A DNA stretch of 64,000 nt from Diacronema lutheri (Eukaryota; Haptophyta; Pavlovophyceae; Pavlovales; Pavlovaceae), in assembly GCA_019448385.1 (NCBI GenBank), contig JAGTXO010000060.1, forward strand, positions 1 to 64,000. Reading direction: 5' to 3'. This document shows, piece by piece, positions 4,740-58,700 of this stretch; position 1 is the first letter of the stretch, and each line of letters opens with the position of its first letter. The translations under genes and the position numbers were made by a program. The notes beneath the pieces were generated by a model that was given only the letters and a program-made list of their open reading frames with translations, ran no database searches and was not told the DNA's origin.

Positions 4740-5665
4740 ATGGTCGAGGCGCATATTGTGCCGAGCGCGGCGACGGCGGAGCTGGAGATGGCGCTCTCGC
4801 TGCTCGCCGTCGTCTTGTGCGTGATCATCGGGGGGCTCATGTCGGGCCTCACTGTCGGCCTTCTCTCACTCGACCCGCTCAATCTCAAGGTGCGCGGCGC
4901 GCGCCCAGCGCGCGCGCCACACGCCGCCAGCCGCCACGTCGTGCGCGCGTGGCCCGCGGTGCCGCACGGCGTCGCGGAGCACGAGGCGCGCGCGCGTATG
5001 CCACGCAGAGCGTTGTTACGTGCTGACACGGCCGGCGCGCTCCGCGCTCGCGCCGTCGCGCCTTGTGGCCACCGCCCATTCGCCTGCCCGCGCGCGGACA
5101 GGTGATTGAGCAGAACGGCTCGCCGCAGGACAAGGCGAATGCGGCCAAGGTGCGACCGCTGATCGAGCAGCACCACCTGCTGCTCGTCACACTGCTGCTG
5201 ACCAACGCCACTGCAATGGAGTCGCTCCCGCTCTTCCTCGATCGGCTCGTGCCGCAGTGGGCCGCCGTCGCCCTGTCCGTCACACTTGTCCTCCTCTTCG
5301 GTAGCCGCGCCGCTGCCGCACCCGCCCCCGCGCTGCCGCTGCCGCTGCCGCGCGGCCATTGCATGCGCCGCGCTCACGCGCACGCCGCGCGCGCACGGCA
5401 TCGGCCTCTCAGGCGAGGTGATCCCGCAGGCGATCTGCACGGGGCCCAATCGGCTGGCAATTGGAGCGGCACTTGTGCCGCTCGTGCGTGCGTGCATCCT
5501 CATCACGGCCATCGTCTCGTACCCGCTCGCAAAGGTGTGCGCACGCTATGCCGCCCTCGCGCCAGCTCGCATCTGCCCCCATACGGGTTGCCCGCCAGAG
5601 TGCGCCAGCTCGCACGCTGCCCGCCGCCTGAGCCGCGGCTGTGCATCCGTAACGTGCACACCCAG

Positions 5666-5700
<35 letters not shown>

Positions 5701-8700
5701 AATGGCTCCCCGCCCCTTGACCGCCCATCCTCACGGCGCAGCTGCTCGACTGCGCGCTGGGCGACGAGCACGGCGGCAAGCTGTACGCGCGCGGCGAGCT
5801 CAAGGCGCTCATCGGCCTGCACGTCTCGCACGGCGCGCCCGGCGGCGGCGGCGGCGGCGGGCCGGCGGGGCAGCGCGCAGCTCGTGGCCGCACAGGCAGC
5901 GCCCAGCATGGCGGCACCGGCGGCGAAGGGGGTGGCGGCGCATTGGCCGACGCCGAGCGCGGCGAGGGCTCGACGGGCAGAGCGCACTGCGCGCGCCAAT
6001 CGTCCGCTGCCCGGCCCGGCGCACACACCGCGCACTCAACCACCGGTGACGGTGGTGACGGTGACGCTGCCACTTTGGGCGCGGCGCGCGCTGAGCCGCT
6101 GAGAGACGGCGCGCGTGGTGCCGACTCTGAGGGCGCGCACGCGCCACGCCGCTCGTCGCTTGCGCAGCCGTCGCGCGATGGTGCGGATGGTGCGGATGTT
6201 GGTGGGCAGCTCGAGGCAGCGGGGGGCCTGCTGCCCGAGGAGGCGACCATCATCTCGCAGGCACGCACAGCCCGCCGCCATTTCTCCCCGCGCAGCGCTG
6301 CGCAGCGCTGTGAGCTCACCCCCGCCCCCCCCCCCCCCCCCCCAAAAAAAAAAATCCTCGTGTCCGGTGTCCGCGCAGGTGCTCGACGCGCCGTACAAGT
6401 TTGCGCACGATGCGATGGTGCTGTGGGAGGACGCGGTGCTCATCGAGAACAACGCAGCCCTCGACGCCGCGATGCTCACGCGCGTCGTGCGCTCGGGACG
6501 CTCGCGGCTGCCCGTGTACGCGCCGCCGCACCGCCCCCCCCTCCCCCCCCCCCCCTCCCCCGTGTACGCACCCCCCCCCCCCCCCCTCCCCCGTGTACGC
6601 GCCGCCGCACCGCCCCCCCCTCCCCCCCCCCCCCCCTCCCCCGTGTACGCACCGCCCCCCCTCCCCCCCCCCTCCCCCGTGTACGCGCGGCCGCACCGCC
6701 CCCCCCTCCCCCCCCCCCCCCCCCCCCTCCCCCGTGTACGCACCGCCCCCCCTCCCCCCCCCCCTCCCCCGTGTACGCGCGGCCGCACCGCCCCTCCCTC
6801 CCCCCCCTCCCCCCCTGCCCCGTGTACGCGCGGCCGCACCGCCGCTTCGCGCCGCGCCGCGCGCTGCCTCTGCCGACCGACCGTCCCCCCCCCCTCCCTT
6901 TCCCCCCTGCCCCCCCTCCCCCTGCCCCCCTGGGCGGTCCCCCCCCCCCCCCTCCCCTCCCCCCTCTCCCCCCTCCACGGCGGCAGCTTCGAAGCTCCGG
7001 ACGTGAACGACATCCGCGGGCTGCTGCTGGTGAACCACCTCGTCGAGTTGAACGGCGCGGAGTGCCGGCCGCTCTCGTCGCTGCCCCTCGTGCGGCCGGT
7101 GATCGTCTCGCCGTACACGCCACTTTTTGCGCTGCTCGACGAGTTTCAAAAGGGGCGCTGCCACATGGCGTTGGTCACCGAGCAGTGGCAGCTCGCGCGC
7201 GCGTGCATCGACGCTCGGCTCGGCCACTTGCCGCCGGGCGCGGGCGCGGACGCGCGCGATGGTGGCGCCGATGGCCTCGCCGAGCGGCTGCGACAGAGCG
7301 GCCGTTGGATGGATCCGGCCGTCTGCTTTCTCGGCCTCGTGACAATCGAGGATGTGCTCGAGGAGCTGATCGGCGAGGAGATTGAGGACGAAGCTGACCT
7401 GGCGAGGCGCGCGGCCGGCGGCACCGCGTCTGGCGCCAGCACGCCGCGCTCGCCGGGCGGGCGCGCGTCTGGCGACGGCAACACGGTCGTCGCGGGGCAC
7501 TCGAGCCGCGAGCTGCTCTCCACCCGCCAGCTGCGCGTGCATTACGCGCAGACGCAGCGCCAGCCACGGATGCACCAGCCCGCCGCCGCCCGCTCGGCCG
7601 CCGCGCCCGCGGCTGCCGCCGAGCTGCGCGCCCTCTCGCCGCACGCCCACCGCTCGGCAGTGCGCCCATTGCTCGCACTGCCGGCTGCCGACGGCACGTC
7701 GCACCTCTCCGTGCGCGTGCCCGCCCGGCGCGGCACGCGGCCCTCCAGCGCGAGCGGTGCCGGCGGTGAGAGCCCACTGAGCGTCTCCCGGACCGGCGGT
7801 GAGGCGGCCGGACTGGGCAGCGGCGCGCACAGCCCGGCGGAGCCGACGCTGCCGCTCGTTGAGACCTTCGCCGCCGCTGCTGCGGCAGAGGCCGCCGCCG
7901 CCGCCGCTGCCGCCGCGACGCCCAACCCACCGCACAGCGTGTCGGCGGGCGATGGCGGCGGCGGCGGCGCGTCTGCGCCGGTGGGCGGTGGGTTGGGCGA
8001 GGCGGCCATCGTGCGGCTCGTGCTCAAATGGGAGCGGCGGATGCGCAGGCGGCTGACGGGCGCGGCGGCTGCAGGCGTCGGCGCGCACGGCGACGGCGCG
8101 AGCAGCGAGCTCGCCGGCGGGCCGGGCGGCGCGGGCGTGCCGCCGGCGCTGGCCGCCGAGCGCGCGTTGCGCCGCGCGTCGTCGGCTCTCAACGCCGCGC
8201 GCGTGTGGCGCGCGGCGGCGGCGGCGAGCTCGGGCGTACCACCCGCGCCGCTCGGGAGCGCGGCCACCTTCACCGCGCCATCGCTCCTACCCGGCGGCGG
8301 CGTGGTGGCGGGGGCGGGCACGCTCGGAACCGCTGGCGAGCTCGCGGGCGAGGTCGCACGCACGCGCTGGCAGGCCCTCGCCGGCGGGTACGACGGCAGC
8401 TGCGCCAGTAACGGCAGTAACGGCAGCTGCGCCCTGCGGCCGAGCAGCGCGCGCGCGCTGCGCCCACCCAACGCCGGCGTCGCCGGCGGCGCGTGCACGC
8501 GCGCGCCGGAGGAGGCGGGCGCGCCCATCGCGCGCGGCCGCACGAGGCTGCTGCGCCTCGCGACGCTGCCATCGCTCTTGGCCGGTGGCGCGCCGCCGTC
8601 GCCCGCCGCCATGCTCGGCGGCGCGCTCGCACTCGTCGGCGGCGCGAGCGCGGGCGTGGGCGCGTGCGCGGGCGCGGGACTCGAGGGCGGTGAGTACGGC

Positions 8701-8838
8701 CGGCTGATCGACGAGCCGGTGAATCCAGCCGATCGTCCGGCCGCGCACGCGCCGATTGACGCGATGCGGCGCATTGAGGACGACAGCGAATTCTTCGCCG
8801 CAATGCTCAGCCGCGCCAGGGGCGGGCCTGAGCCCTGA
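4740..8838 (+). CDS. CNNM/HlyC-type DUF21-CBS membrane transporter
   Basis: Six exons: 4740-4889, 5102-5300, 5413-5534, 5742-6260, 6379-6515, 6987-8838. All phases join and give 992 aa. Exons 1-3 encode the four-helix DUF21 domain (VLCVIIGGLMSGLTVGLLSL, LLLVTLLLTNATAMESLPLF, FGEVIPQAICTGPNRLAIGA). Exon 4 carries the conserved linker LYARGELKALIGLHVSHG and LPEEATIIS. Exons 5-6 encode the CBS pair (RSGRSRLPVFEAPDVNDIRG; FLGLVTIEDVLEELIGEEIE). The family (CNNM/CorC) moves or regulates Mg2+ across membranes. The C-terminal 450 residues are Ala/Gly-rich without a visible domain. Intron 4 uses a GC donor. Intron 5 is 471 nt (157 codons), stop-free and in frame, so retaining it would add a proline-rich insert inside the first CBS motif. 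Introns 3-5 carry poly-C tracts. An upstream in-frame ATG at 4617 is possible. Confidence 0.87.
5649..5698. repeat. Poly-C tract in CNNM intron 3
   Basis: Nearly 50 C residues, ending about 43 nt before the acceptor. It takes the place of the usual polypyrimidine tract. Confidence 0.85.
6509..6840 (+). repeat. Tandem array of exon tail + 5' splice site + poly-C
   Basis: The exon 5 end and donor (CCCGT|GTACGC) recur eight times counting the authentic one, near 6514, 6560, 6591, 6641, 6678, 6732, 6770 and 6820. Each is followed by (G)CGGCCGCACCG-type sequence and a C/T-rich tract. The genuine donor is taken to be the first copy because CCC GT + C gives the CBS motif RLPVFEAP. Confidence 0.9.
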
Positions 8839-12032: not shown

Positions 12033-12238
12033 GGGGGAGGGGGGGGCATCTGCTCGATTGGCCCCTTACCAGCATCGAGAACTGCGAGGAGCGGAATCGA
12101 GCCAACCGCCAGTTTGTTCAGCGCGGACAGGTCGCGGTTGAGCACCTCTTTGGGCTCTCCGACGGTGAGGATGAAGTCCTGCCGCGTGATGTACGCGATC
12201 TCAACGTTCTCGCCCTTGGCAATCACCTGCGATGGCGG

Positions 12239-12277
<39 letters not shown>

Positions 12278-12335
12278 CGGTTTGCCCCACCTGATGCTCA
12301 GAGGAGGTCGCGCCGAAGAGACTCTCCTCGCCAAA

Positions 12336-12381
<46 letters not shown>

Positions 12382-14064
12382 TGGCCCCACCTGATGCTCA
12401 GAGGAGGTCGCGCCGAAGAGACTCTCCTCGCCAAAGTAGTCGCCCGGGTACTTGTGCGCCACCTCCTGCCCGCCCTTGATGAGGGACGCCTCGCCGATGC
12501 GCATGATATAAAGATGGCCGATCTTGTCGCCCGCCTTGAGGATCAGCTGCCCGTCGGTGAACTTCTCGACGGTGAGCGCAGAGGCGAGGCGCAGCCGCTC
12601 CTTTGGCGTCATGTGGTGGAAGATGGGCATCGTGCGGATCAGCTTCTCGTTCGCGCCAAACTCACGCTTCTGCGCCCACTTGAAGACGAGGTGGAAGGTT
12701 CGCTTCGTCAGCACGTACACCACCTGAGCACACGCGCAACGGTGCGCGGGCCAAGGGCAGCGGCAGGGCAGCGGCAGGGCAGCGGCGTCAGTGGCGCAGT
12801 GTCGCGCGCGCGACAAGCGGCGCGCCGCGGCGCCGCCGAGGGTGCGACTGCGCCGGACAGGGGGCCGCCCCGATCGCCCCCTCCCAAGCAGGGGCGCGCC
12901 CCATCGCCCCCACCCCCCCCCCCCCCCCCCCCCCCCACCCCCCCCCCCCTCCCCACCCCGATCGCCCCCTCCCAAGCAGGGGGGCGCCCCCATCGCCCCC
13001 TCCCAAGCAGGGCCCCCCCCCCATCGCCCCCTCCCAAGCAGGGGGGGGGGCGCCCGGAGCCTCCAACCCTCCGCCTTCGGTCGGCTGCGCGCGGTGGCGG
13101 CGCGCTCGACACGGCCGTGCAGAGGCGAGGGCGAGAGCGCGGCGGGCGGTGGTGCGCACCGCGTCGCCCTTGGTCGCCTTGAGCGTGTACATGTGCGTGT
13201 CGTCGTAGAGCAGCATCTCCTGCGCACCGGTGGGCGAGCGCGCGAGCCAAAAGCCAAACGCGGCCGCACGCGCAGGTGTGGGCGACCGACAAGCCGCGCG
13301 GCAGTGCCGACACACTGGACGGTGCATGCACCCGTCGGGCCGCCTGGCACGATGCGCCGCGCACCTCGCCATGGTGCTGGCCTGCGACGAGCGTGCGCGG
13401 CTTGTCCTTGGGGTCCTCTGAGCTGAGCGTCACGGTGCCGGCTGTGACGACAACCAGGCCGGGCGCCATTGGCCGCCCCTGCCCCTTGCCAATGTCGAGC
13501 GTCTGCGCATCGACGAACGGAGGAGGGGAGCGAAGAGCAGAGGCGGGGCCGAGTTAGGCCGGGGCGAATGGTTCAGCGCGACAGCGCACCGCGGCCGACT
13601 GCGCGCGCCTGCCAATCCGCCTGGCCGCGCGTCGACAGTGCGGCCGAGGCGCGGTGCGGTGGCCGCTGCAAAAGCGCGGGCCGCCAGCCCGTGATGGCAT
13701 GCAGCAGCGGCCACGGCCGCGTGCGCCACGGACGCGCACGCCGCTTGCGCCGTGCCGCGCGCGCCGTGGCCGCTGCCGCGCGGACCTCCATGTGGTCGAT
13801 GAGGTCGCCCATGTGCTCCGGTGACATGCGCGAGCCGACGTTGGTCTTCTCGATCGCCTTCTTGATCATCGCCGCGTCCGCGGCCGGCTTGTCGCTCTTG
13901 CGCACATCGGTCGCGTCCTTGAGGTCCTGCCCGCGCGTCGTCTCGCCCCACACGCGGCCGCGCTGCTTGTCCGACTTGATGTGCTTGGTCTCGCGGCGCT
14001 GGGACGAGCCGGGGCGCTCGGCGGACGGTTTTCCGCCGAGCATGCCCTTCACCTTGCCCAGCAT
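9959..14064 (-). CDS. cGMP-dependent-type protein kinase, three CNB domains
   Basis: Nine exons in transcript order: 14064-13786, 13502-13365, 13219-13160, 12723-12391, 12226-12070, 11932-11775, 11349-10786, 10673-10429, 10262-9959. All phases fit; 745 aa. Three cyclic-nucleotide-binding domains (about 85-160, 185-300, 310-410) precede an AGC kinase domain with GKGAYG (447-452), ALK Lys469, YRDLKPEN (Asp561) and C-terminal AGC tail FLGFDWDALYDKRLEPPFKP. PKGs of protists phosphorylate Ser/Thr targets after cGMP (or other nucleotide) binding. Only CNB-3 keeps the canonical cassette FGERALMDDKPRMATV; CNB-1 (HGEEMLLYDDTHMYTL) and CNB-2 (FGEESLFGATSSEHQV) lack the Arg. The metal-binding motif is DLG rather than DFG. 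Introns 6 and 7 have GC donors. Introns are crowded with repeats. Confidence 0.9.
11437..11738. repeat. 41-bp minisatellite in PKG intron 6
   Basis: About seven near-identical 41-bp units (AGAGGGGGCACAGCGAGCAG, then GGACAAGCTTGGGCTGCCGCC) lie between exons 6 and 7 of the kinase gene. Each unit carries an AAGCTT palindrome. The array sits well inside the intron, which has a GC donor at 11774 and a GCGCAG acceptor at 11350. Confidence 0.93.
12240..12436 (-). repeat. Duplicated exon end + donor with poly-C, PKG intron 4
   Basis: The last about 43 nt of exon 4 plus the 5' splice site (sense ...GAGCATCAG|GTGGGGC) occur at 12383-12436 and again, identical, at 12284-12336. Each copy is followed in the sense strand by a run of more than 35 C. 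The phase-correct model uses the outer copy (exon end 12391) and the acceptor at 12227. Splicing from the inner copy would repeat the exon tail. Confidence 0.92.
12870..13050. repeat. Interrupted 30-35 bp repeat and poly-C, PKG intron 3
   Basis: Four copies of a unit containing ATCGCCCCCTCCCAAGCAGG, spaced by C-rich runs. The gene is on the minus strand, so the transcript reads G-rich here, the opposite of most introns in the window. Confidence 0.8.
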
Positions 14065-21541: not shown

Positions 21542-23094
21542 ATGGCCTACTTCACGCGCGTGCACTTTCGTGTGGTCGCGCACACGCACCACGGCGAGGC
21601 GGTGCACGTCGTGGGCGCGAGCCCCAGTCTTGGTGCGCGTGCTGTGTGCCGTCCGCGCCGCCGCCGCGCGCGTGGCCTGCAACCGCGCGCCCACGCGCGC
21701 GCGCGCGCGTGCGCGCCGCGCCGCGCGCAGGCTGCTGGGAGCCGCTGCAGGGCGTGGCGCTCGAGACGGACGGCGAGAGCTACCCGGTGTGGCGCGCGAC
21801 GGTGTCGCTCCCCGCCGAGCAGCCGCTCGCGTACAAGCTCGTGCTCATCGATGGCGGCATGAGCGGCTACCCGCAGCTCAAGGCGTGGGAGGGCATCGCG
21901 GGCAACCGCGAGCTCTGCCCGCGCGGCGACGAGATGACGGTCGAGGTGGTGATGCACGAGCAGCCGCAGCCGCGAGCGGGCGGCCTGCTTGAAGGCACAC
22001 TGCCGCTCGCGCCGACGCACGTCGTCGACAGCTTCGCACAGCCGCCGGGCGCGCCGCCTCCGCCGCCGCTCGCGACTGCGCCTCCGCCCGCGCACGCGCA
22101 GCCGCAGCCGCCGCCGCTGCTTGGCGCGGCGTGCGACGGCGGCGGCGGCAACGGCGGCGGCGTCGCGCACGAATCGTCGCCGCACGCCCGCGCCGACACG
22201 CCGCCGCGCGAGAACGCGCCCATCCCCGCGCCGATCCCGCCGCTCGTCTCGTCCAACTCGGCCGTCACGATGCTCGGCGGCAACGGGCCTTTCGACGAGC
22301 TCGTCCACGCGTCGCGCGAGCACGAGCTTGGCGACGGTGAGCTGGACGAGAGCGACGCGGTGATGGTCGTCTCGTACGTGCTCCCGCTCACCATCTGCCG
22401 GCGCGACGGCGGTCTGGGCTGGTCCGTCGAGTGGAACCAGGACTCGATCGTCGCCAAGAAGCACCGCTCAATCACCGACGCGATGCGCGTGCTGTGGGTC
22501 GGCTGCCCGCACGTCTCGCTGCGCGAGGAGCTGAGCGGCGCGGAGAAGGAGTCTCTTGCCGACGCGCTTCGCCCCTTCCACTGCGTGCCCGTCTGGCTGG
22601 GCCCCTCGCTGCACGCGGAGGCGTACTATGGCTTCTGCCGCAAGCAGCTGTGGCCCGTGCTGCACAACTGCGTGAGCGCGTACACGCGCGCGGCCGACAC
22701 CTTCTCCACCGCGGGCTGGCGCGCGTACACGGCGGTGAACAAGCACTTCTCCGACGTGGTGACGGAGGTGTACGAGCCTGGCGACCTCGTGTGGGTGCAC
22801 GACTACCATTTGCTGCTCCTCCCATCGTTTGTGCTGCGCAAGCTGCGCACCGCGTCCGTTGGCCTTTTCCTGCACACGCCCTTCCCCTCCTCCGAGCTCT
22901 TTCGAACCATACCCGTGCGCGACGAGCTGCTGCGAGGCATGCTCAACGCCGACCTCGTCGGCTTCCACCTCTTCGAGTACGCGCCGCCATGCTGCGTTGC
23001 GTCGCCACCCCCCCCCCCCCCCCCCCGCCTCCCCCATCCCTCCCCATCCCTTCCACCTCTTCGAGTACGCGCCACCATGCTGCGTTGCGTCGCA

Positions 23095-23127
<33 letters not shown>

Positions 23128-25853
23128 CCTCCCCCATCCCTCCCCATCCCTTCCACCTCTTCGAGTACGCGCCGCCATGCTGCGTTGCGTCGCGTTCGCC
23201 CTCCCCTCCCAACCCTCTCTCCTCCCCTCTCTGGGCTCGCACCCCCCCCCCCCCCCCCCTCCCCCATCCCTCCCCATCCCTTCCCCTCTTCCCGGCCCCG
23301 CCGCGCGCGCCAACGGCGGTCCGGCCCACGCCGCGCGCGCGCCCGCCGCCCCCGCCGCGCCTCGCGGCGCGCAGGTACGCGCGTTCGTTCCTCACGTGCT
23401 GCAAGCGGATGCTCGGCCTCGAGTACGAGTTCGTGCCCGGCGGCTTCCTCGCGGTGCGCGACCAGAAGCGCGTAGTCTTTGTGCAGGCGAGCCACGTGGG
23501 CCTCGAGCCGGACAACTTGCAGCCGCACCTCCGTCCGGTGGGCGCGGCGGAGATGCCGCCGGAGCTCGCACGGTGCGACGAGCTGCGCGCCGCGCTCGGC
23601 TCGGGTCGCGCGCTCATCGGCGGCATCGACGAGTGCGAGCACCTGCGCGGTCTCACATTTAAATTGCTCGCATTCGAGGGGCTGCTCGAGCTGCACCCGG
23701 CGTGGCAGGGGAAGGTCTGCCTCGTGCAGCTCCTCGTCGGCGCGCGCAACTACCTGCCCGCCGCCGAGGGCGACTCGTCCGCCGTGCGCGCCGAGCTGCG
23801 CGCGATCGCCGCGCGCGTGAACAGCGCGCACCCTGGCTCCATTGTGCTTGTCGACCTGCCGACCGTTTCGGTTGGTGTAAGGATGGCGGTGTGGGCGTGG
23901 CTACGCGTCGCCATCTTCTCGGCGATCAAGGAGGGCGTCAACGTGTACCCGCTCGAGTATGTGTACGCGCGCTCGGGCGAGGGCGCGGGCGTCGTCGTCT
24001 TGTCGGAGACCTGCTCGTGCGCGCATGTTCTCAACGGCGCGCTGCGTGTGAACGTCTGGTCGGCCGACGAGCTCATCGCGGCGATCGTGCGCGCGCTGAC
24101 GATGGAGGCGGCCGAGCGGATCGCGCGGCAGCAGCGCGACCTGATCTTTGTCGTCTCGAACACGACGCAGTCGTGGGCCGCGCGCTTCTTTGTCGATCTG
24201 AAGGCCGTCTCGCACCGCTCGCGCAAGGAGGAGGAGCCAGCGATGGCGATTGGCTTTGGCCTCGCCTCCTTCCGCTGCGTGGGGATGGGCGGGATGCGCA
24301 CCCTCGAGGTGACCGACGTGCTTGCCGCCTACCGCAAGACGGTGCGACGCGCCATCTTCGTCGACTGGGGCGGCACGCTCGTGCCCAACGACGACAGGCC
24401 TTTGACGCCAAGCCTCGCCTCTGAGGAGTATTCGCGACGCCTGCTGCCTGGACCGACGCACCACTGCCTCGAGGAGCTCTGTCACGACCCGCGCAATTTC
24501 GTCATGGTCGTGAGCGGTCTCGCGCGCACGCAAATGGAGCAAGTCTTCGGCGGGCTCCCCGCCATCTCCCTCGCAGCAGAGCACGGCTTGCTCTACCGTG
24601 TCGGCTCAACGCCCGGCGCGCATTACCGCGGCGCGGGGCACTGGGAGCAGATCATTGAGAGCTTCAACGACGACTGGAAGGCGCGCGCCACGCGCCGCGC
24701 CGCGACGCGCGCGCCCGGCCGCACGCCGACGCGCGCGCGCACGCGCGCCGCTCGCAGGACCTGGCGCACGCGATCGTCGAGACATACGCGATGCGCACGA
24801 ACGGCTCGTACGTGCAGCGCAAAGGGTCGTCGGTCGTGTGGCGCTTCGAGGACGCGGACCTCGAGTTTGGCGCGCAGCAGGCCAAGGAGATGCGCGAGCA
24901 CCTTGACAACTTGCTGCAGGGCTATCCCGTCGATGTGCAGGTGGGCAAGGGCTACGTCGAGATCAAGCCGGCGGGCGTGGACAAGGGCGTGATCGTCTCG
25001 CTCATGCTCTCACACCTCGCCGCCTCCTCTGGCGGCGTCGACTTTGTGCTCTGCGTGGGCGATGATTCATCGGACGAGAAGATGTTTGAGGCGCTGCACA
25101 GCCGGTTGGGCGGCGGCCACTCGACGCCATTGCCCACCTCGCCCCGCGGCCTCTCCGCGGGGCAGCCGTCGGCGCACGTCTTCTGCGCGACGGTAGGGCG
25201 CAAGCCGTCGGCCGCCCCCTACTACGTGAATGACCACGAGGAGGTGCTCGAGCTGCTCCAGTCCCTCCGATTGCACTCAACACGCTCGAACCGAAACCGC
25301 TCACTGACCGACCTCAACCGCCTCGGCCACCATCCGCACCGCGCCGTGCCCGGCGGCGGGCCCGGCGGCGGCGGCGAGCGCGCCGCGCCGCACGACCGCA
25401 ACGCACCCGCGCGCTCGTCGATCGGGGGCATCGCACACGGCGCGCTCGTCGGTGCGGCCGCGGCCGCGGCCGCTGGCTCCGAATTTGGCTCCGAATTTGG
25501 GCCGAGGGTCGGCGGCGCGGTGCCGAGCGGCGCGGCGCGCACGGCGGAGCAGCTGCCCATGCACGGCGGCGGCGGCGGTGGTGGCCTCTACGGCCAGCGC
25601 GCCGCGTGGGCGGCGACGCGCTCGAGCGACGTGCTCCCCGGCTCTTCGGCGACGCCGATCCCCGCACGATACGCGCAGGTGCGCGCACGCCACGCGCGCC
25701 GCGCGCGTGGCGCCGCGCCGACCACCGCGCGCTGCGCCGCGTGTGAGCCCGTCTCACCTCGGCTCGCCCATGCGCCGCGATGGCGGCGTTGGTGCGCAGA
25801 GCGTGCTCGGCCCGGATGTTGACGGCGAGGCGCCGCCGCCACTGACAGAGTAA
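21542..25853 (+). CDS. Class II-like trehalose-6-phosphate synthase/phosphatase with CBM20
   Basis: Five exons: 21542-21632, 21731-22976, 23375-24680, 24758-25678 and probably 25800-25853; 1,205 aa. Residues 1-110 form a CBM20 starch-binding domain ([39 protein letters not shown]). Residues about 240-760 are the GT20 synthase domain ([52 protein letters not shown]). About 770-1000 is a HAD/TPP domain with [11 protein letters not shown]. Synthase makes trehalose-6-phosphate from UDP-glucose and glucose-6-phosphate. The HAD nucleophile motif reads FVDWGGT, so the second Asp of DxDGT is Gly, and the GT20 loop reads [10 protein letters not shown] where active enzymes have DxxKG. Both suggest a regulatory rather than catalytic protein, as in plant class II TPS. 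Intron 3 has a GC donor; intron 2 repeats its own donor. The last exon is the least certain. Confidence 0.88.
22955..23290 (+). repeat. Tandem array of exon tail + 5' splice site + poly-C, TPS intron 2
   Basis: The exon 2 end CTTCCACCTCTTCGA|GTACGC, plus CCRCCATGCTGCGTTGCGTC and a poly-C tract of up to about 30 nt, occurs three times (exon copy near 22963, then near 23050 and 23153). It is followed by further C-rich sequence before the acceptor at 23374. All three copies keep the same donor. The frame is resolved by GA + G TAC GCG CGT, giving the conserved FEYARSF. Confidence 0.92.
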
Positions 25854-26877: not shown

Positions 26878-29800
26878 TCACGCCTCGCCGCGCTGTGCGG
26901 CAGCGGCGGCCGGGCCGTCGGTGGCGGCCGCGTCGGTGCTCGCGGCGAGCTGGTGCTTGCGCTTGCCCGCGCCGCCCGCGCTGCCGAGCGGGCTCGCGTT
27001 CGGTGCGCTACGCTTCCCCTCGCGAGCGCCGCCGCCGCCGCCTCCTCCATGCTGCGCGTCACCGTCGCCCGCGGTGGTCGCCGACGAGCGCGCGGCGCCA
27101 CCCAACGCGCGCTTGGCGGAGGCGGCGGCGGGGCGCGCGCGCGAGACGGCCGCGTCGCGCGAGCAGAAGGAGGCCGTAGCCGCGCCGCTGCCGCTGCCGC
27201 CGCCAGCCGCCTCGTCGGCCGTAGCCGCCGTTGCGGCCGTTGCGCCGGTCGCGCGCGTTGCCTCCGTGTTCGACGCGCTGCCGTCGCATGGCGGCGCGAG
27301 GGACTGGAAGACGCTCACCGTCCGAAGCAACCGGCGGCGCACCTCATCGTTCTCCTCGCGACTCAGCTGCGCGCTCAGCTCGGCGCGCGCCGCGTCCGCC
27401 GCGTCCGCGTCGGGCCAGAACGGGCCGCACGCCGCCCGCCGCGTGCGCGCGTCGGCCGCGCCGCCGCACGCGCCGCACGCGCCGACGCCGGCGCGCTCGT
27501 CGGAGATGAGCGCGGTGGCGGGCTGGCTGCTGCGCGCCGCCGCGGCGAGCGTGAACGCGCGCACGCCGTCGAGCTCTGAGCGGAAGCCGCCCGCCGCGCG
27601 CGCGTCGAGGACGCGCTGCAGCGAGTGAAGCCCGCCGCGCGCGCCGACCGCCGCCACGCTCGCCGCCGCGCGCGCGAGCTCGTCGACGTGCGGCGCGCCC
27701 TTCGGCGAGCGGCAGGGCGCGAGCGCAGCCGGCAGCGGCAGCGGCGCGTCCAACTTCGGCGCGGGCGGCACCGAGCACATGGCGGGGGCAGCGACGATGG
27801 CCGCGGGCTGCTGCGCGCCACACGCGGCCATAGGCTGGCATGGCGTGCGGCCGTCGAGCGGCGGCGAACCGAGCGTGCCGCATGTCTGCACGACGCCTTG
27901 CTGCAGCCACGCAGGCTCGTCGTCCTCCTCGTCCTCGTCGTCAAATGCCGACTCGTCGGCCTCAAGCTCACCCACCCGCGCCAGCTCGCCCACCTGCGCC
28001 AGCTCGCCCACCTGCGCCAGCTCGCCCACCTGCGCCAGCTCGCCCACCTGCGCCAGCTCGCCCACCTGCGCCAGCTCGCCCACCTGCGCCAGCTCGCCCA
28101 CCCGCGCCAGCTCGCCCACCTGCGCCAGCTCGCCCACCCGCGCCAGCTCGCCCACCTGCGCCAGCTCGCCCACCCGCGCCAGCGACTTAGCCGCGCGGCT
28201 CGCGCTCGCACCGCCCGCGCCGCCCGCGCCGCCGTCCGCTGCCGCGACGAATTCGGCGGCGCGCACGACCGACGCGGCTGCTGGCGTGGCGGCAAAGGCC
28301 GCGCTGGCGGCTGTGCGTGTGGCGCCGCGTTGCGTGCCAAGCTCGCCGCCGCATGCGAGCGAAGTTTGGGCGGGCAGCGCAGCGGCCACCGGTGCGGCCG
28401 TGCGGCCGGGCAGCTCGAGCGAAGCGCACTCAACGGCCGCTGTGCCGCCCACCGCGGCGGACGCGCCCGCGCCGCTCGGTGCGACATTTGCGCGCGCGCG
28501 CGCGTTGCCGCCGGCGGCCGGCGGCACGGACGCGTCCAGTCCGGCCGGCGGCACGGACGCGTCCAGTCCGGCCGGCGCGCCCACCGGCGCGCCGGGCTCT
28601 GCGCACGCGGGCTGTGGCTGCTCGGCGCCGCCGCCGTCTCCGCCGTGCGCAGCGCCTCCGCCTCCGTGGTAGTATGCGAAGAGTGAGTCAAGCGACGTCT
28701 CGTCCCCGCGCGCGCACGATGCGTCGCACGATGCGTCGCGTGCGCGAGTCAGCTCGTCGTGCGTGCGCGAATGGCCCTTGTGCGCGCGGCTGGCGGCTGC
28801 GCGGAGCGGCGGAGCGGCGGACGGCGGACGGCGGACGGCGCGTGCACGCAGCGGTGGGCGGCCGGCGCGCGAGTGAGCGCGCGCGGACGTGTCACGCGGT
28901 GCTGCAGGCGGGCGCGAGCCAGCGCGCCCGCCCGCCCGCCGAGCGCATGCCGCGCACCAGCGCACCACCACCGCACCACCCACCGCCCCACCACCGCACC
29001 ACCCACCGCCCCACCACCGCACCACCCACCGCCCCACCACCGCACCACCCACCGCCCCACCACCGCCCCACCCACCGCCCACCACCGCACCACCCACCGC
29101 CCCACCACCGCACCACCCACCTGCCCCACCACCGCACCGCCGCCGCACCTGGGCTGCCGCCGCTGGCGCAAGCGTCGCCGCTCGCCCTGCCGCCGGCGCG
29201 CGCGCCGGCCGCCCTCGACCCACCCTTGCCGCCATCGCTTAGAGCGTCGAGTGCTCCCACGCCGCCATCGCTGGGACTGGCGCTGCCCGGGTCGGAGCGC
29301 AGGTGCGAGCCTGCCTCGGAGGGCTCGAGGGATGAGAGGTTCCACGGCCAGATCGCGCTGTCTGCCCAGCGGAGCGCGCCGGCAGTGCCACCGTCGGGCG
29401 GCGAATCGCACACAAGGTCCGCGAATGCTTCTGCCTCTGCCTCCGCCTCCGCCTCCGCCTCCGCCTCCGCCTCCGCCCCGTCGTCGCGCGCTTGCGCAGC
29501 GGCCGCGACGGCGGCTGAGGCCCCGGTCGCGCCGCGCGCGCGCACGCCGCCGCCGCCACCACCACCGCCGCCGCCTTGCCGGCTGGCGCGTGCAGCCGGC
29601 CGGTGATCGGGTGCCGCACACGCGACAGCCATCTCGAGCTCCGAGGCCGGCAGCGCGCCGCCACCCGTGTCCTCCTCTGCGCCCGCGACGGGCGTCGGCG
29701 CCGTCGCCGCCCCGCCCGAGCGCACGTTCGCCGCCCGCGCGCCGCGCGGCGCGCGCCGTCGCGGCTCGCCGCCGCCCGCGCGCGCACAGCCCGCGCGCGC

Positions 29801-41557: not shown

Positions 41558-44500
41558 TCAACCCGCTCGCCCGCTGGCTCTCACAGCAATGGGCTCCGCC
41601 GCGCGCGCCGCGCCGGGCCGGGCGTGCGCCACTGTGCGACGAGCGACGTCCACGTCGCCGCTGGCGGCCCGGACCGGCAGCGGGCCCATGCGCACGTCGC
41701 GGGCGAGCGCCGCCGGGCCGTGCCGCTCGTCTGGCGCGGCGGCTTCGCGCCGCTCGAGCCGCCTGCGCGGCAGGCCGCGACGTGCGCGCCGCGCCCCGTC
41801 GCCACGCGCGCGGCCGTCGCGCGCGTTCGCGCGCAGCACGCGCCGCACGCTCTTCGTACCGCTCGCGTCGTGGCCGCTGCCACCCTCGCCGCCGCCGCCA
41901 CTCTGCCCGCGCCTGCCGCTCTGTGGCTCGCGCGCATCGCCACGCGCCGGGTCGCTGACCTCGCGTGTGCGCGCCGGTGGCGGCGCGCCGCGCGCGCGCT
42001 CCCACGGCGTCGGCGTGGACGGCCCGGCGGGCGCGCAGCGCACCCGGCTGCATGCGTACTCGCGCGCGCCCACCGACTCGTCGCCGGATCGGCGCGCCAG
42101 TTGCGGTGGCAGGACCATGTTGAGCGCCCAGAGCCGCTCGGTGCCCGTTGGGAAGTAGATGCCGCGCAGCCGCCACTCCACCTCCGCGTCGAGCGGCACG
42201 TCGCGCGTCTTGTGGTTTGGCAGCGCGCCGCCCATCGAGCGCGCCTCGCACCGCGCGAGCAAAGAGGGCGGCAGCGCGAGCGGCAGCGACACGCCCGCGT
42301 GCGACGCGACGAGGTGGAGGAGGTCCGACGCGGCCATCGCCTTCATCGCCTCCGTCTCGAGCAGCAAAAAGCTGCACGGGGGGAGGGGGAGAGGAAGGAT
42401 GAGTAAAGGGGTAAGAGGGGGGGGGGGGGGGGGGGGGGGGTTGGGGGGGTTTGGGGCGCGGTGCGCAGCAGGCCGTGGGCGAGGTGGGAGGCGGGGGCAG
42501 ATGGGGCGGCATGGGAGGCGGGGGCAGATGGGGCGGCATGGGAGGTGGGTGCAGATGGGGCGTTCAGGGCGAGGTGGGAGGCGGGGGCAGATGGGGCGGC
42601 ATGGGAGGTGGGGGCAGATGGGGCGGCATGGGAGGCGGGGGCAGATGGGGCCGCATGGGAGGTGGGAGCAGATGGGGCGTTCAGGGCGAGGTGGGAGGCG
42701 GGGGCAGATGGGGCGGCATGGGAGGTGGGGGCAGATGGGGCGTTCAGGGCGAGGTGGGAGGCGGGGGCAGATGGGGCGGCATGGGAGGTGGGGGCAGATG
42801 GGGCGTTCAGGGCGAGGTGGGAGGCGGGGGCAGATGGGGCGGCATGGGAGGTGGGGGCAGATGGGGCGGCATGGGAGGCGGGGGCAGATGGGGCGGCATG
42901 GGAGGTGGGTGCAGATGGGGCGTTCAGGGCGAGGTGGGAGGCGGGGGCAGATGGGGCGGCATGGGAGGTGGGGGCAGATGGGGCGGCATGGGAGGCGGGG
43001 GCAGATGGGGCGGCATGGGAGGTGGGAGCAGATGGGGCGTTCAGGGCGAGGTGGGAGGTGGGGGCAGATGGGGCGGCATGGGAGGTGGGGGCAGATGGGC
43101 GTTCAGGGCGAGGTGGGAGGCAGGGGCAGATGGGGCGGCATGGGAGGTGGGGGCAGATGGGGCGTTCAGGGCGAGGTGGGAGGCGGGGGCAGATGGGGCG
43201 GCATGGGAGGTGGGAGCAGATGGGGCGTTCAGGGCGAGGTGGGAGGCGGGGGCAGATGGGGCGGCATGGGAGGTGGGGGCAGATGGGGCGTTCAGGGCGA
43301 GGTGGGAGGCGGGGTCAGATGGGGCGGCATGGGAGGTGGGGGCAGATGGGGCGTTCAGGGCGAGGTGGGAGGCGGGGGCAGATGGGGCGGCATGGGAGGT
43401 GGGGGCAGATGGGGCGGCATGGGAGGTGGGGGCAGATGGGGCGGCATGGGAGGCGGGGGCAGATGGGGCGGCATGGGAGGTGGGTGCAGATGGGGCGTTC
43501 AGGGCGAGGTGGGAGGCGGGGGCAGATGGGGCGGCATGGGAGGTGGGGGCAGATGGGGCGGCATGGGAGGCGGGGGCAGATGGGGCGGCATGGGAGGTGG
43601 GAGCAGATGGGGCGTCCAGGGCGAGGTGGGAGGCGGGGGCAGATGGGGCGGCATGGGAGGTGGGGGCAGATGGGGCGTTCAGGGCGAGGTGGGAGGCGGG
43701 GGCAGATGGGGCGGCATGGGAGGTGGGAGCAGATGGGGCGTTCAGGGCGAGGTGGGAGGCGGGGGCAGATGGGGCGGCATGGGAGGTGGGGGCAGATGGG
43801 GCGTTCAGGGCGAGGTGGGAGGCGGGGGCAGATGGGGCGGCATGGGAGGTGGGGGCAGATGGGGCGTTCAGGGCGAGGTGGGAGGCGGGGGCAGATGGGG
43901 CGGCATGGGAGGTGGGAGCAGATGGGGCGTTCAGGGCGAGGTGGGAGGCGGGGGCAGATGGGGCGGCATGGGAGGTGGGAGCAGATGGGGCGTTCAGGGC
44001 GAGGTGGGAGGCGGGGGCAGATGGGGCGGCATGGGAGGCGGGGGCAGATGGGGCGGCATGGGAGGTGGGAGCAGATGGGGCGTTCAGGGCGAGGTGGGAG
44101 GCGGGGGCAGATGGGGCGGCATGGGAGGTGGGGGCAGATGGGGCGTTCAGGGCGAGGTGGGAGGCGGGGGCAGATGGGGCGGCATGGGAGGTGGGGGCAG
44201 ATGGGGCGTTCAGGGCGAGGTGGGAGGCGGGGGCAGATGGGGCGGCATGGGAGGCGGGAGCAGATGGGGCGTTCAGGGCGAGGTGGGAGGCGGGGGCAGA
44301 TGGGGCGGCATGGGAGGTGGGAGCAGATGGGGCGTTCAGGGCGAGGTGGGAGGTGGGAGCAGATGGGGCGTTCAGGGCGAGGTGGGAGGTGGGGGCATAT
44401 GGGGCGGCGTGGCGTGCCTGCTCGGGTCGAAGGTGGCGAGCCAATTGCGCAGGTGCACGCCGTAAAGCGAATTGCTCACGTAACGGTAGTAGTCGTTCTT

Positions 44501-47500
44501 AATGCAGTCCTTCTCAACCTGTCTGAAGGTGCGCTCAGTGCACCCTCCGCCGACGAGCCCGCTGAGCGCCAACCCGCCGCTCGCGCGCACACAGCGCTCG
44601 AGCTGACGCAGCTGCTCCGACGCCGCCTTTTCAAAAGAGTGCGAGCGGTGGTGCCGACCCTTCCACGAGGAGGCCATGCTCCACTCGGAGTAGGCGCGGG
44701 CGACCGGCGCGCGCAGGAGCACGACGAGACGTAACGGCTGCCGGTCGGGGGAGGGGGGGGGGGGAGGGGGGGGGGGGGCGGCGGGACGGGAGGGCGGGGC
44801 GGGAGGGCGGGGCGGGAGGGCGGGACGGCAGCGCGGTGTGCGGCAGGAGGGCGGGGCGGGAGGGCGGGGCGGGAGGGCGGGACGGCAGCGCGGTGTGCGG
44901 CAGGAGGGCGGGGCGGGAGGGCGGGGCGGGAGGGCGGGGCGGGAGGGCGGGACGGCAGCGCGGTGTGCGGCAGGAGGGCGGGACGGGAGGGCGGGGCGGG
45001 AGGGCGGGGCGGGAGGGCGGGGCGGGAGCGCGGTGTGCGGCAGGAGGGCGGGACGGGAGGGCGGGGCGGGAGGGCGGGACGGCAGCGCGTTGTGCGGCAG
45101 GAGGGCGGGGCGGGAGGGCGGGACGGCAGGGCGGGGCGGGAGGGCGGGGCGGGAGGGCGGTGTGCGGCAGGAGGGCGGGGCGGGAGGGCGGGGCGGGAGG
45201 GCGGGGCGGCAGCGCGGTGTGCGGCAGGAGGGCGGGGCGGGAGGGCGGGGCGGGAGGGCGGGGCGGCAGCGCGGTGTGCGGCAGGAGGGCGGGGCGGGAG
45301 GGCGGGGCGGGAGGGCGGGGCGGGAGGGCGGGGCGGGAGGGCGGGGCGGGAGGGCGGGACGGCAGCGCGGTGTGCGGCAGGAGGGCGGGGCGGGAGGGCG
45401 GGACGGGAGGGCGGGGCGGGAGGGCGGTGTGCGGCAGGAGGGCGGGGCGGGAGGGCGGGACGGGAGGGCGGGACGGGAGGGCGGGACGGCAGCGCGGTGT
45501 GCGGCAGGAGGGCGGGGCGGGAGGGCGGGACGGGAGGGCGGGGCGGGAGGGCGGTGTGCGGCAGGAGGGCGGGGCGGCAGGGCGGGGCGGGAGGGCGGGG
45601 CGGGAGGGCGGGACGGCAGCGCGGTGTGCGGCAGGAGGGCGGGGCGGGAGGGCGGGGCGGGAGGGCGGGACGGGAGGGCGGGACGGCAGCGCGGTGTGCG
45701 GCAGGAGGGCGGGGCGGGAGGGCGGGGCGGGAGGGCGGGGCGGGAGGGCGGGGCGGGAGGGCGGGACGGCAGCGCGGTGTGCGGCGGGAGGGCGGGGCGG
45801 GAGGGCGGGACGGCAGCGCGGTGTGCGGCGGGAGGGCGGGGCGGCAGGGCGGGGCGGGAGGGCGGGGCGGGAGGGCGGGACGGGAGGGCGGGGCGGGAGG
45901 GCGGGGCGGGAGGGCGGGACGGCAGCGCGGTGTGCGGCAGGAGGGCGGGGCGGGAGGGCGGGGCGGGAGGGCGGGGCGGGAGGGCGGGGCGGGAGGGCGG
46001 GGCGGGAGGGCGGGGCGGGAGGGCGGGGCGGCAGGGCGGGGCGGGAGGGCGGGGCGGGAGGGCGGGGCGGGAGGGCGGGGCGGGAGGGCGGGGCGGCAGC
46101 GCGGTGTGCGGCAGGAGGGCGGGGCGGGAGGGCGGGACGGGAGGGCGGGGCGGGAGGGCGGGGCGGGAGGGCGGTGTGCGGCAGGAGGGCGGGGCGGGAG
46201 GGCGGGACGGGAGGGCGGGACGGCAGCGCGGTGTGCGGCAGGAGGGCGGGGTGGGAGGGCGGGGCGGGAGGGCGGGGCGGGAGGGCGGGGCGGGAGGGCG
46301 GGGCGGGAGGGCGGGACGGGAGGGCGGGACGGCAGCGCGGTGTGCGGCAGGAGGGCGGGGCGGGAGGGCGGGACGGGAGGGCGGGGCGGGAGGGCGGGAC
46401 GGCAGCGCGGTGTGCGGCAGGAGGGCGGGGCGGGAGGGCGGGGCGGCAGGGCGGGGCGGCAGGGCGGGGCGGGAGGGCGGGGCGGGAGGGCGGGGCGGGA
46501 GGGCGGGCGGGAGGGCGGGACGGCAGCGCGGTGTGCGGCAGGAGGGCGGGGCGGCAGGGCGGGACGGGAGGGCGGGGCGGGAGGGCGGGACGGCAGCGCG
46601 GTGTGCGGCAGGAGGGCGGGGCGGGAGGGCGGGGCGGGAGGGCGGGGCGGGAGGGCGGGACGGCAGCGCGGTGTGCGGCGGGAGGGCGGGGCGGGAGGGC
46701 GGGACGGCAGCGCGGTGTGCGGCGGGAGGGCGGGGCGGGAGGGCGGGACGGGAGGGCGGGGCGGGAGGGCGGGGCGGCAGCGCGGTGTGCAGGAGGGCGG
46801 GGCGGGAGGGCGGGGCGGGAGGGCGGGGCGGGAGGGCGGGGCGGGAGGGCGGGGCGGGAGGGCGGGGCGGGAGGGCGGGACGGCAGCGCGGTGTGCGGCG
46901 GGAGGGCGGGACGGCAGGGCGGGGCGGGAGGGCGGGGCGGGAGGGCGGGACGGGAGGGCGGGACGGGAGGGCGGGGCGGGAGGGCGGGGCGGGAGGGCGG
47001 TGTGCGGCAGGAGGGCGGGGCGGGAGGGCGGGGCGGGAGGGCGGGGCGGGAGGGCGGGGCGGCAGCGCGGGGCGGGAGGGCGGGGCGGCAGCGCGGTGTG
47101 CGGCAGGAGGGCGGGGCGGCAGGGCGGGACGGCAGCGCGGGGCGGGAGGGCGGGGCGGCAGCGCGGTGTGCGGCAGGAGGGCGGGGCGGGAGGGCGGGGC
47201 GGGAGGGCGGGGCGGGAGGGCGGGGCGGGAGGGCGGGGCGGGAGGGCGGGGCGGGAGGGCGGGACGGCAGCGCGGTGTGCGGCAGGAGGGCGGGGCGGGA
47301 GGGCGGGGCGGGAGGGCGGGGCGGGAGGGCGGGGCGGGAGGGCGGGGCGGGAGGGCGGGACGGCAGCGCGGTGTGCGGCAGGAGGGCGGGGCGGGAGGGC
47401 GGGACGGGAGGTCGGGGCGGGAGGGCGGGGCGGGAGGGCGGGGCGGGAGGGCGGGACGGCAGCGCGGTGTTGACGTCTCGAAGCGCGCGAGCGCGCGCCC

Positions 47501-55700: not shown

Positions 55701-58700
55701 GCAGCACTCGGCGACCGCGCAGCACTCGGCGATCGCGCAGCACTCGGCGCGCTGCCGCGCATCGCCGCGATCGCCTGCGCATCGGAGCGCCGCGACGCGC
55801 CCGCCCCGGTGCTCGCCACCGTCGCGGGTCTGCGCGCGGCGTGCGTGCCGTGCGCGTCCGCGTCGCCCGCCCAGCCCCAGCCTCTGCCCAGGAGCTGCGC
55901 GTCGTTGGCCGCCTGCCGCAGCGCGTCCGTGCGCGCGTGGTGCCGTTCGACTTCCTCGCCTGGCGCGTACGGGAACGAGAAAAGGGGCGGGGAGGGGGGG
56001 GGGGGGGGGGGGGGGGGGGGAGGGGAGAGGAGGGCAACGGGCAGCGAAGGGCGCTGTCAGCGAGCGAGGTGCGGGGGGGGGGGGGGGGGGGGGGGGGGAG
56101 AGGAGGGCAACGGGCAGCGAAGGGCGCTGTCAGCGAGCGAGGTGCGGGGGGGGGGGGGGGGGGGGGGGGGAGGGGGGGGGGAGACGAGGGCAACGGGCAG
56201 CGAAGGGCGCTGTCAGCGAGCGAGGTGCGGCGCTGGCCGGCCCGAACGTCGCAGCAGCCGATCGGAAGCGCGGCGGTGCGGGCGGTGCGCGGGGCTCGGA
56301 CCAAAAATGCCGCCCTTGCCGCGCAGGGGCGCCTCGTGCGAGCGAAGCCACAGCCGTTTCTCCACAAGCCGCAGCGCAGCCGCATGAGCGTCGACGTCGC
56401 CGTCGCCGTCGCCGCCGTCGGTGGCCGCGCGGGGTGAGCGTGCGCGATTGGGCGGGGCGGGGCGCTGGCGGTGCGCGGAGAGCGCGGCGCGGCGAGCAAG
56501 CGGGGCAGCCTCAGCCGCGGCGAGCTGCGCGCTAGCCCACCCCACCGCACGCAGGGGCGAGCCGCCGCCGCTGCGCTCGCCGTGCGCGTGGCCGACTGCG
56601 TGCGGTTGGGGCGGCGCGCATTGCGCGAGGCTCTGTCCGGATGAGTAATTGACGATAAGCAGCGAACCGTCCTGCATGGGCGGATAAGGCGGGCACAAGG
56701 CAGGGGGCAGGGCAGGGGTCAGGGGGCAGGGCAGGGGTATGTGAGCAGAGCGAAGCGGCAGCGTTGGGAGGGAGGGGGGGGGGGGGGGGGAGGGGGAAGG
56801 GCATGGGAGGGCCGATTCAAACCGCTGTGCTCAAAGTCCTCGCGCCCAGAAATGGGGAGGGGCTGGCTGGCTGATTGGCAGGTTGGCTGCCGATCACCTC
56901 CGCGCCAATCAGCAGGCGCCTGCCCGATGCGTCGAGCGCCGCAGCCGTCGGCCTCAGCTGCGCGGGCTGCGCGGGCTGCGCGGGCTGCGCGGGGTGCATG
57001 CGTTGCGCGTAAAAGGCGAATGCGAGGCCGCCCGTCGACAGCGAGAACGACTTGACGCATGCAGCTGCGTCGACCTGCAATCCCAAGGGTTGAGGGGGGG
57101 GCGGGGGGGCGGGGCAGGCAGAGGGGAAGGGTTGATCTTCGTGCTAAGTGGGTGTGTGTCGGGTGACCGCGCGCGCAACGGCAGCCCAGGCGCAGGGGGC
57201 GGCCCAGGCGCAGGGGGCAGCCCAGGCGCAGGGGGCAGCCCAGGCGCAGGGGGCGGCCCAGGCGCAGGGGGCAGCCCAGGCGCAGGGGGCAGCCCAGGCG
57301 CAGGGGGCAGCCCAGGCGCAGGGGGCAGCCCAGGCGCAGGGGGCAGCCCAGGCGCAGGGGGCGGCCCAGGCGCAGGGGGCAGCCCAGGCGCAGGGGGCAG
57401 CCCAGGCGCAGGGGGCAGCCCAGGCGCAGGGGGCGGCCCAGGCGCAGGGGGCGGCCCAGGCGCAGGGGGCAGCCCAGGCGCAGGGGGCAGCCCAGGCGCA
57501 GGGGGCAGCCCAGGCGCAGGGGGCGGCCCAGGCGCAGGGGGCAGCCCAGGCGCAGGGGGCGGCCCAGGCGCAGGGGGCAGCCCAGGCGCAGGGGGCAGCC
57601 CAGGCGCAGGGGGCAGCCCAGGCGCAGGGGGCAGCCCAGGCGCAGGGGGCGGCCCAGGCGCAGGGGGCAGCCCAGGCGCAGGGGGCAGCCCAGGCGCAGG
57701 GGGCAGCCCAGGCGCAGGGGGCGGCCCAGGCGCAGGGGGCAGCCCAGGCGCAGGGGGCAGCCCAGGCGCAGGGGGCGGCCCAGGCGCAGGGGGCAGCCCA
57801 GGCGCAGGGGGCAGCCCAGGCGCAGGGGGCAGCCCAGGCGCAGGGGGCGGCCCAGGCGCAGGGGGCGGCCCAGGCGCAGGGGGCAGCCCAGGCGCAGGGG
57901 GCAGCCCAGGCGCAGGGGGCGGCCCAGGCGCAGGGGGCAGCCCAGGCGCAGGGGGCAGCCCAGGCGCAGGGGGCAGCCCAGGCGCAGGGGGCAGCCCAGG
58001 CGCAGGGGCGGCCCAGGCGCAGGGGGCGGCCCAGGCGCAGGGGGCGGCCCAGGCGCAGGGGGCAGCCCAGAAGCAGGGGGCAGCCCAGGCGCAGGGGGCA
58101 GCCCAGGCGCAGGGGGCGGCCCAGGCGCAGGGGGCAGCCCAGGCGCAGGGGGCAGCCCAGACGCAGGGGGCAGCCCAGGCGCAGGGGGCAGCCCAAAGGC
58201 GCACAGCCCGCGGCTGCGGCTGGTCGCGACGTACTGTGACGAGCAGGCCGAGCTGATGAGCGACGGCCGCGGCGACGATGGGCTCGACGGACGCCGAGTG
58301 CGAGGGCGGCGGCTCTGTGACGAGGCGCGTGAGCGCATTGACCGCCGCTGCCGTCGCGGCCGCCTCGGCCGCCGTGACCGCCTTCTCCACGTGGCCGCCG
58401 TCGCCATCCCCGCCGGTGCTGTCAGCGGCGACCGCCTTGTCCGCGGACGACCTTCTCTCTCTCTCTCGCGTGCCTCCTGCGCTCGCGCGCTCGGCAAGGC
58501 CAAAGCGCGCCCTCAGCTCCGCAAGCAGCGGCCGGGTGAGCCACGGGTAGCCGCGCGATGGCGCGCCTGCGCCACCGCCAGTGCCCGGCGCGCTCGCACC
58601 CGCCTCCGCCGCGCCGCCTGCGCCACCGCCGTCGGCTGCCGGGCGCACGCCGTGCGCGCCGCGCGCGCTCAGACCGCCGCCACCGCCGCGCTCGCCACGG

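Follow-up and report, generated by a model that had tools for sequence, protein, structure and literature searches.

A minisatellite in the human IFI6 gene is reportedly the subject of a 1995 study by Turri, which we know through the papers that cite it. Human introns are also said, in the title of a 2007 PNAS paper by Zhuo et al., to come from tandem arrays, and by that title the likeness to the arrays described here lies in the tie between tandem arrays and alternatively spliced introns. For IFI6, the accessible part of one account describes downstream tandem repeat units that act as donors (PMC4526556). In Lipomyces, the [D] stwintrons are presented, in the available text, as cases in which the functional donor of an existing intron was tandemly duplicated, with end-joining repair as the proposed route (PMC7138796). 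Among the matches listed by a literature search conducted mostly outside subscription papers, no haptophyte arrays of this kind appeared.

We analysed a window consisting of the first 64 kb of contig C44, within a genome of 43,492,796 bases in 103 contigs that was searched as a whole. The published assembly of D. lutheri NIVA-4/92 has, in the portion of its description available, 43,502,671 bp, 103 contigs and 73.25% GC (PMC8379373). Positions 1-46 are an AACCCT telomere-like repeat, and the window is a contig end. It contains a CNNM-type gene whose fifth intron begins with a tandem array of its own 5' splice site (a slash marks splice junctions throughout):

4740..8838, forward strand: CNNM-type transporter gene of six exons, spliced by hand, matching Pfam CNNM and the CBS domains of CNNM4 and CNNM2 in the PDB.
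4740-4889, 5102-5300, 5413-5534, 5742-6260, 6379-6515 and 6987-8838, forward strand: the exons of this gene, placed by hand.
6516..6986, forward strand: intron 5, 471 nt, GT..AG, 69% C, with a lone AG that is the acceptor.
6510..6841, forward strand: tandem array of eight copies of CCCGTGTACGC(G/A)C with C-rich spacers, in long/short alternation.
6842..6986, forward strand: the non-repeated rest of intron 5, a GC-rich stretch, a C-rich tract with TGCCCC motifs and the acceptor CGGCAG/C.

In its first 521 residues the predicted protein matches Pfam CNNM (E 7.4e-25), and splicing of 6515 to 6987 yields GRSRLPVFEAPDVNDIRG, with SRLPV/FEAPDVNDIRG at the protein junction. The spliced product aligns across this junction to the CBS structures of CNNM4 and CNNM2 with no large insertion and just a single-residue gap close by, which makes it very likely that the 471 nt are an intron. 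In other words, removal of a GT-AG segment restores a conserved protein, as expected of a spliceosomal intron. Intron 4 of the same gene (6261-6378, forward strand) is of the GC-AG type and starts CAG/GCACGC; a GC donor is possible, too, in the gene at locus L030, for which there was no Pfam match.

The first-pass annotation of this stretch had described eight equivalent donors facing one acceptor, and this description holds. As in an array of the IFI6 type, each tandem unit carries a donor, with CGT/GTACGC at positions -3 to +6 in 8/8 copies (donors at 6516, 6564, 6595, 6645, 6681, 6736, 6773 and 6824), and the intron has no AG other than its acceptor, so that all eight donors face a single acceptor. 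The exon tail, donor and C-rich stretch are indeed repeated eight times, as had been claimed, with the qualification that the copied exon amounts to only about 5 nt (CCCGT), perhaps with CTGCCC in the last junction. The shared GTGTACGC starts at 6514, 6562, 6593, 6643, 6679, 6734, 6771 and 6822, all within 6514-6829. Units of 48, 31, 50, 36, 55, 37 and 51 nt are alternately long and short, and most of the array can be read as a long-short dimer of about 86 nt repeated about 3.7 times (TRF period 86). The long units carry GTGTACGCGCCGCCGCACCG in copies 1 and 3 and GTGTACGCGCGGCCGCACCG in copies 5, 7 and 8, while the short units (copies 2, 4 and 6) are missing the 8 nt after GTGTACGC, copy 2 additionally having C for G within the following ACCG. 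This dimeric higher-order structure, together with similar junction copies in three further genes, supports the earlier proposal that the intron grew by tandem duplication. Comparison of the last junction, CCCTGCCCC/GTGTACGC, with that of the exon, GGCTGCCC/GTGTACGC, suggests that the first duplication may have joined the C-rich tract of the intron to the exon via CTGCCC. Of the 12 occurrences of the core CCCCGTGTACGCRC in 43.5 Mb, 7 lie inside the CNNM array; the reversed control pattern is present 3 times. The array of donor copies is not a product of chance, and its core is local and not a dispersed family.

Three further genes carry arrays of this kind, two of them in the window:

22962..23193, forward strand: TPS-type array, exon tail CTTCCACCTCTTCGA with donor GTACGCGCC and poly-C in 3 copies, donors at 22977, 23065 and 23165.
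22977..23374, forward strand: TPS intron holding this array, 398 nt, acceptor GCAG/GTACGCGCG, junction gapless against 5hvm.
12240..12436, reverse strand: kinase-type array, about 45 nt of exon with donor GTGGGG and poly-C in 2 copies of a 100-nt unit, donors at 12390 and 12290.
12227..12390, reverse strand: kinase intron holding this array, 164 nt.

The genes are of the trehalose-phosphate-synthase (TPS) type (Pfam Glyco_transf_20, 2.5e-97) and the cyclic-nucleotide-dependent-kinase type (Pfam cNMP_binding, 3e-12; PDB match 5dyk). In both, the Pfam and PDB families match across the splice junction, and none of the CNNM, TPS and kinase junctions coincides with a large insertion in homologous proteins. 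The genome search placed the TPS unit at three places at its own locus and in a TPS paralogue, and the kinase unit at two places, both at this locus, where the exon copy is identical between the two copies. The downstream tract of the TPS intron includes CTTCCCCTCTTC, a partial match to the exon tail. Outside the window, a phosphoglucose-isomerase gene (Pfam PGI, 3.6e-63 across the junction) repeats a 17-nt exon tail and donor, with two identical tail copies and a donor offset of 74; it is one among five loci chosen from a genome-wide search for a poly-C pattern, whose listed matches fell at 7 distinct places. The genome thus holds at least four cases of junction-copying poly-C arrays, with eight copies in the CNNM gene, three in TPS, two in the kinase and two in the isomerase, and in 4/4 the repeated unit is without an acceptor. 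Further AGs lie inside the TPS and kinase arrays, and other splice patterns are possible in those two introns. At 12284-12336 (reverse strand) the copied exon piece of the kinase holds an AG (GGCGAG/GAG) and ends in its own donor, and a crude gene finder called 12326-12291 (reverse strand) an in-frame 36-nt exon repeating ESLFGATSSEHQ.

This gene finder, which served for the wider surveys, uses codon log-odds from 1664 codons, missed the CNNM gene and split the kinase intron at the 36-nt exon, and its 353 introns (66 in the window and 287 in contig C5) are approximate. On these models, none of the 65 runs of at least 12 C or G in 264 kb falls in a predicted exon, 36 fall in predicted introns and the other 29 lie outside predicted genes, a figure that includes those of the missed CNNM gene. 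The absence from exons is partly circular, as the finder scores CCC and GGG codons slightly negative. Intronic runs are sense-C in 27 cases and sense-G in 9 (binomial p 0.004, a value that is too small as runs share introns), and by intron the counts are 20 and 6.

Genome-wide, there was no enrichment of a donor motif between poly-C tracts: polyC..GTRCG..polyC gave 492 matches (365+127) versus 632 (358+274) for the reversed pattern, which is a coarse control only, as the matches overlap. Ten poly-C/G arrays were examined, five from the window, one from 200 kb of C5 and four from chosen loci. Four include the exon tail and donor, six do not demonstrably do so and the acceptor was seen in none, with the limits that the arrays at L029 and L030 run past the fetched stretch, that the one at 55983-56230 has no gene model and that one of the donor cases was picked up by a search biased towards donors. 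Not counted among the ten are three imperfect C tracts of two copies each in C5 (35006, 49175 and 79855 of the joined sequence), a G-rich array at L029 and the arrays at L037; L032 was without an array. Since the motif is not above its reversed control and 6/10 arrays are without a demonstrable donor, donor inclusion in poly-C arrays may be incidental. A claim of 5'/3' asymmetry was dropped, as two arrays have unseen 3' ends, one has no gene model and one is the donor-biased case. The array at 55983-56230 (reverse strand) consists of a poly-C-containing unit, 73-83 nt long, in three copies. That at L029 (C11:434501-438000, with matches from C11:430453) is a poly-C array of about 5 kb, its unit containing the donor-like CCGCCAAGGTACGCGG; it includes AAG/GTACGC and was counted as not demonstrably donor-including.

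Among the 287 crudely predicted introns in 200 kb of C5, none was a clear junction-copy case (one weak match, 18/22, was read and not accepted), and such arrays therefore look uncommon outside the window. TRF arrays (unit at least 15, score at least 80) span a predicted donor in 8/62 instances in C5 and 2/30 in the window, and a predicted acceptor in 7/62 and 2/30, respectively. Seven of the eight donor-spanning arrays in C5, leaving out 27089-28558, were judged to be coding repeats or weak gene predictions, and 3/4 matches to 3' junctions look like coding Ala/Pro-rich or low-complexity repeats. Near C5 209,800 (reverse strand), a short two-copy repeat without poly-C lies over a predicted acceptor and, provided that the gene model is correct, is a possible 3' counterpart. 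None of the donor-including arrays found is more than 25 kb from a contig end (three on C44, one on C13), and there may be a subtelomeric bias. The window also holds two long adjacent G-rich arrays at 42485-47467, nearly 5 kb, built on units of about 63 nt and 13 nt.

We consider it probable that the CNNM array is a poly-C-anchored minisatellite that grew, by short-homology tandem duplication, across the 5' splice site of a spliceosomal intron already in place. Long C runs, as seen on the crude models, sit in introns or outside genes, and within introns mostly on the sense strand. To judge by the junction sequences, tandem duplication would link such a C-rich tract to a short C/T-rich match in the exon tail, CTGCCC in CNNM and CTTCC in TPS, and the resulting unit would consist of exon tail, donor and poly-C; this microhomology is short, and in the kinase it is only 1-2 nt, so that chance is possible. 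Later deletion and unequal duplication could then have produced the long/short dimer and the eight copies that are seen. We suggest that the exon-adjacent donor is normally chosen and that the duplication would be nearly neutral, because the whole array leaves with the intron when this donor is used; use of an inner donor would insert C-rich sequence and in most cases shift the frame. The exon-adjacent donor is probably the one in use, and the repeat would have covered it by happenstance. Whether the process is general is a separate matter: we advance only tentatively, with more doubt than belief, the idea that in this lineage C-rich intron tracts repeatedly capture the neighbouring exon end in an ongoing, genome-wide, poly-C-driven duplication of junctions, tolerated through reliable choice of the exon-adjacent donor. 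If that idea is true, the arrays would serve as naturally occurring assays of competition between 5' splice sites and also as feedstock for new exons, and the kinase copy could form its in-frame 36-nt exon.

We considered whether the array might instead be a splicing device, in which regulated donor use places proline-rich inserts in the CBS domain or tunes output through frameshift and decay. All eight CNNM donors are identical and share one acceptor, as such a device would have them, and downstream repeat units do act as donors in human IFI6, according to the part of the literature available (PMC4526556). The intron is also stop-free over its 471 nt in the host frame, as first annotated, and is in fact open in all three frames. 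However, 77% of 5000 base-composition shuffles of the CNNM intron are likewise open in one given frame, so the open frame carries little information and is expected from the C-rich composition. The offsets of the inner CNNM donors modulo 3 are 0, 1, 0, 0, 1, 2 and 2; 3/7 could thus act in frame as the first-pass annotation envisaged, and the other 4/7 are out of frame. None of the inner donors of the kinase, TPS and isomerase genes keeps the frame, which brings the four genes together to 3/11 in frame and 8/11 out of frame, about the expected third, and intron retention would shift the frame in all three (TPS, 398 nt; kinase, 164 nt; isomerase, 110 nt). Inserts in the CNNM protein would, in addition, land within a conserved CBS domain. 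Because most inner donors shift the frame and the open frame is expected by composition, the sequences give no sign of selection for in-frame use of inner donors; the suggested role in adding in-frame proline-rich sequence is not borne out, and we regard a splicing device as unlikely.

Slippage of reads or of the assembler in C-rich DNA, inflating the copy number, is a still weaker explanation, and we think it very unlikely. The array has C runs of up to 20 nt, and homopolymers in the window reach 51 nt, which are hard for sequencers; the exact C-run lengths are accordingly doubtful. The copies nevertheless differ in an ordered way, by substitutions and the 8-nt deletion. If the window is from NIVA-4/92, the available description of that assembly gives PacBio subreads with an N50 of 23 kb at about 315x and Illumina polishing (PMC8379373), and such subreads far exceed the 0.3-kb length of the array.

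Intron gain by tandem duplication is marginally less credible again. In its favor, exon sequence is duplicated in all four genes, and the TPS donor GTACGCGC (22977-22984) equals the start of the next exon (23375-23382), an identity that may be chance, given donor and codon bias. Against it, the acceptor lies outside the repeated unit in all four cases, and paralogues have introns that are free of junction copies. In the TPS paralogue L034 (Pfam Glyco_transf_20, 4e-32), the identical site is occupied by a 180-nt intron, with donor GTGATC, without poly-C and with a short GTGGC repeat near its acceptor, in which no copy of its own 5' junction was found at 16/22 or better. In the CNNM paralogue L037 (Pfam CNNM, 1.4e-10), a GT-AG intron of 147 nt precedes the V of IPVYRG, 2 nt away from the position of intron 5; it contains a C run, and no copy of its own 5' junction was found in it. 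The L037 intron is in phase 0 versus phase 2 for CNNM intron 5, which leaves it likely, though not certain, that the two positions are homologous. Since the paralogues have introns without junction copies at the same site or 2 nt off, the introns probably predate the arrays, in which case the introns grew and were not gained; for TPS, the paralogue largely refutes gain, and in neither gene does the comparison point to an intron that was absent before the duplication. L037 has two more long tandem arrays in non-conserved stretches, and arrays within genes are therefore not confined to the window.

Least credible of all is the insertion of an introner-like mobile element where exon and intron meet: C-rich arrays that resemble these are present in further introns of the genome, but the non-C part of the three window units is gene-specific and copied from the local exon, so that the three genes have locus-specific cores and not the same element at unrelated loci.

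A minisatellite grown over the donor of an existing intron would have implications for how splice signals are chosen and how introns lengthen. To our knowledge, choice among identical 5' splice sites has mostly been studied with engineered constructs. Natural genes in which 2, 2, 3 and 8 donors, identical or nearly so, precede one acceptor offer a test of this choice, in a host whose genome is small and long-read-sequenced and for which RNA-seq has been made; the NIVA-4/92 publication describes three strand-specific libraries (PMC8379373). The loci also show a route by which an intron lengthens and an exon end is duplicated without a new intron, a step that is easily missed because the arrays resemble low-complexity sequence.

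By analogy, the closest known relative of the CNNM array is the IFI6 minisatellite, which, in the accounts available, is likewise a tandem repeat at an exon end whose units carry donors competing for the next acceptor; the algal arrays differ in being C-rich and in occurring in four unrelated genes with candidate inner donors. The [D] stwintrons share with them the tandem duplication of the donor of an existing intron (PMC7138796). In the available text of that work, 4-7 nt are duplicated and new 3' sites then give a nested intron, whereas here the copies number up to eight and their units measure 31-100 nt, and the CNNM intron, whose lone AG is its acceptor, has no internal AG to delimit an internal intron. 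Intron gain by tandem duplication (2016, PMC4974935; review, PMC3443670), as far as the available portions describe it, likewise involves duplication of an exon-intron boundary that supplies splice sites, but there a new intron arises, whereas here the intron probably predates the array.
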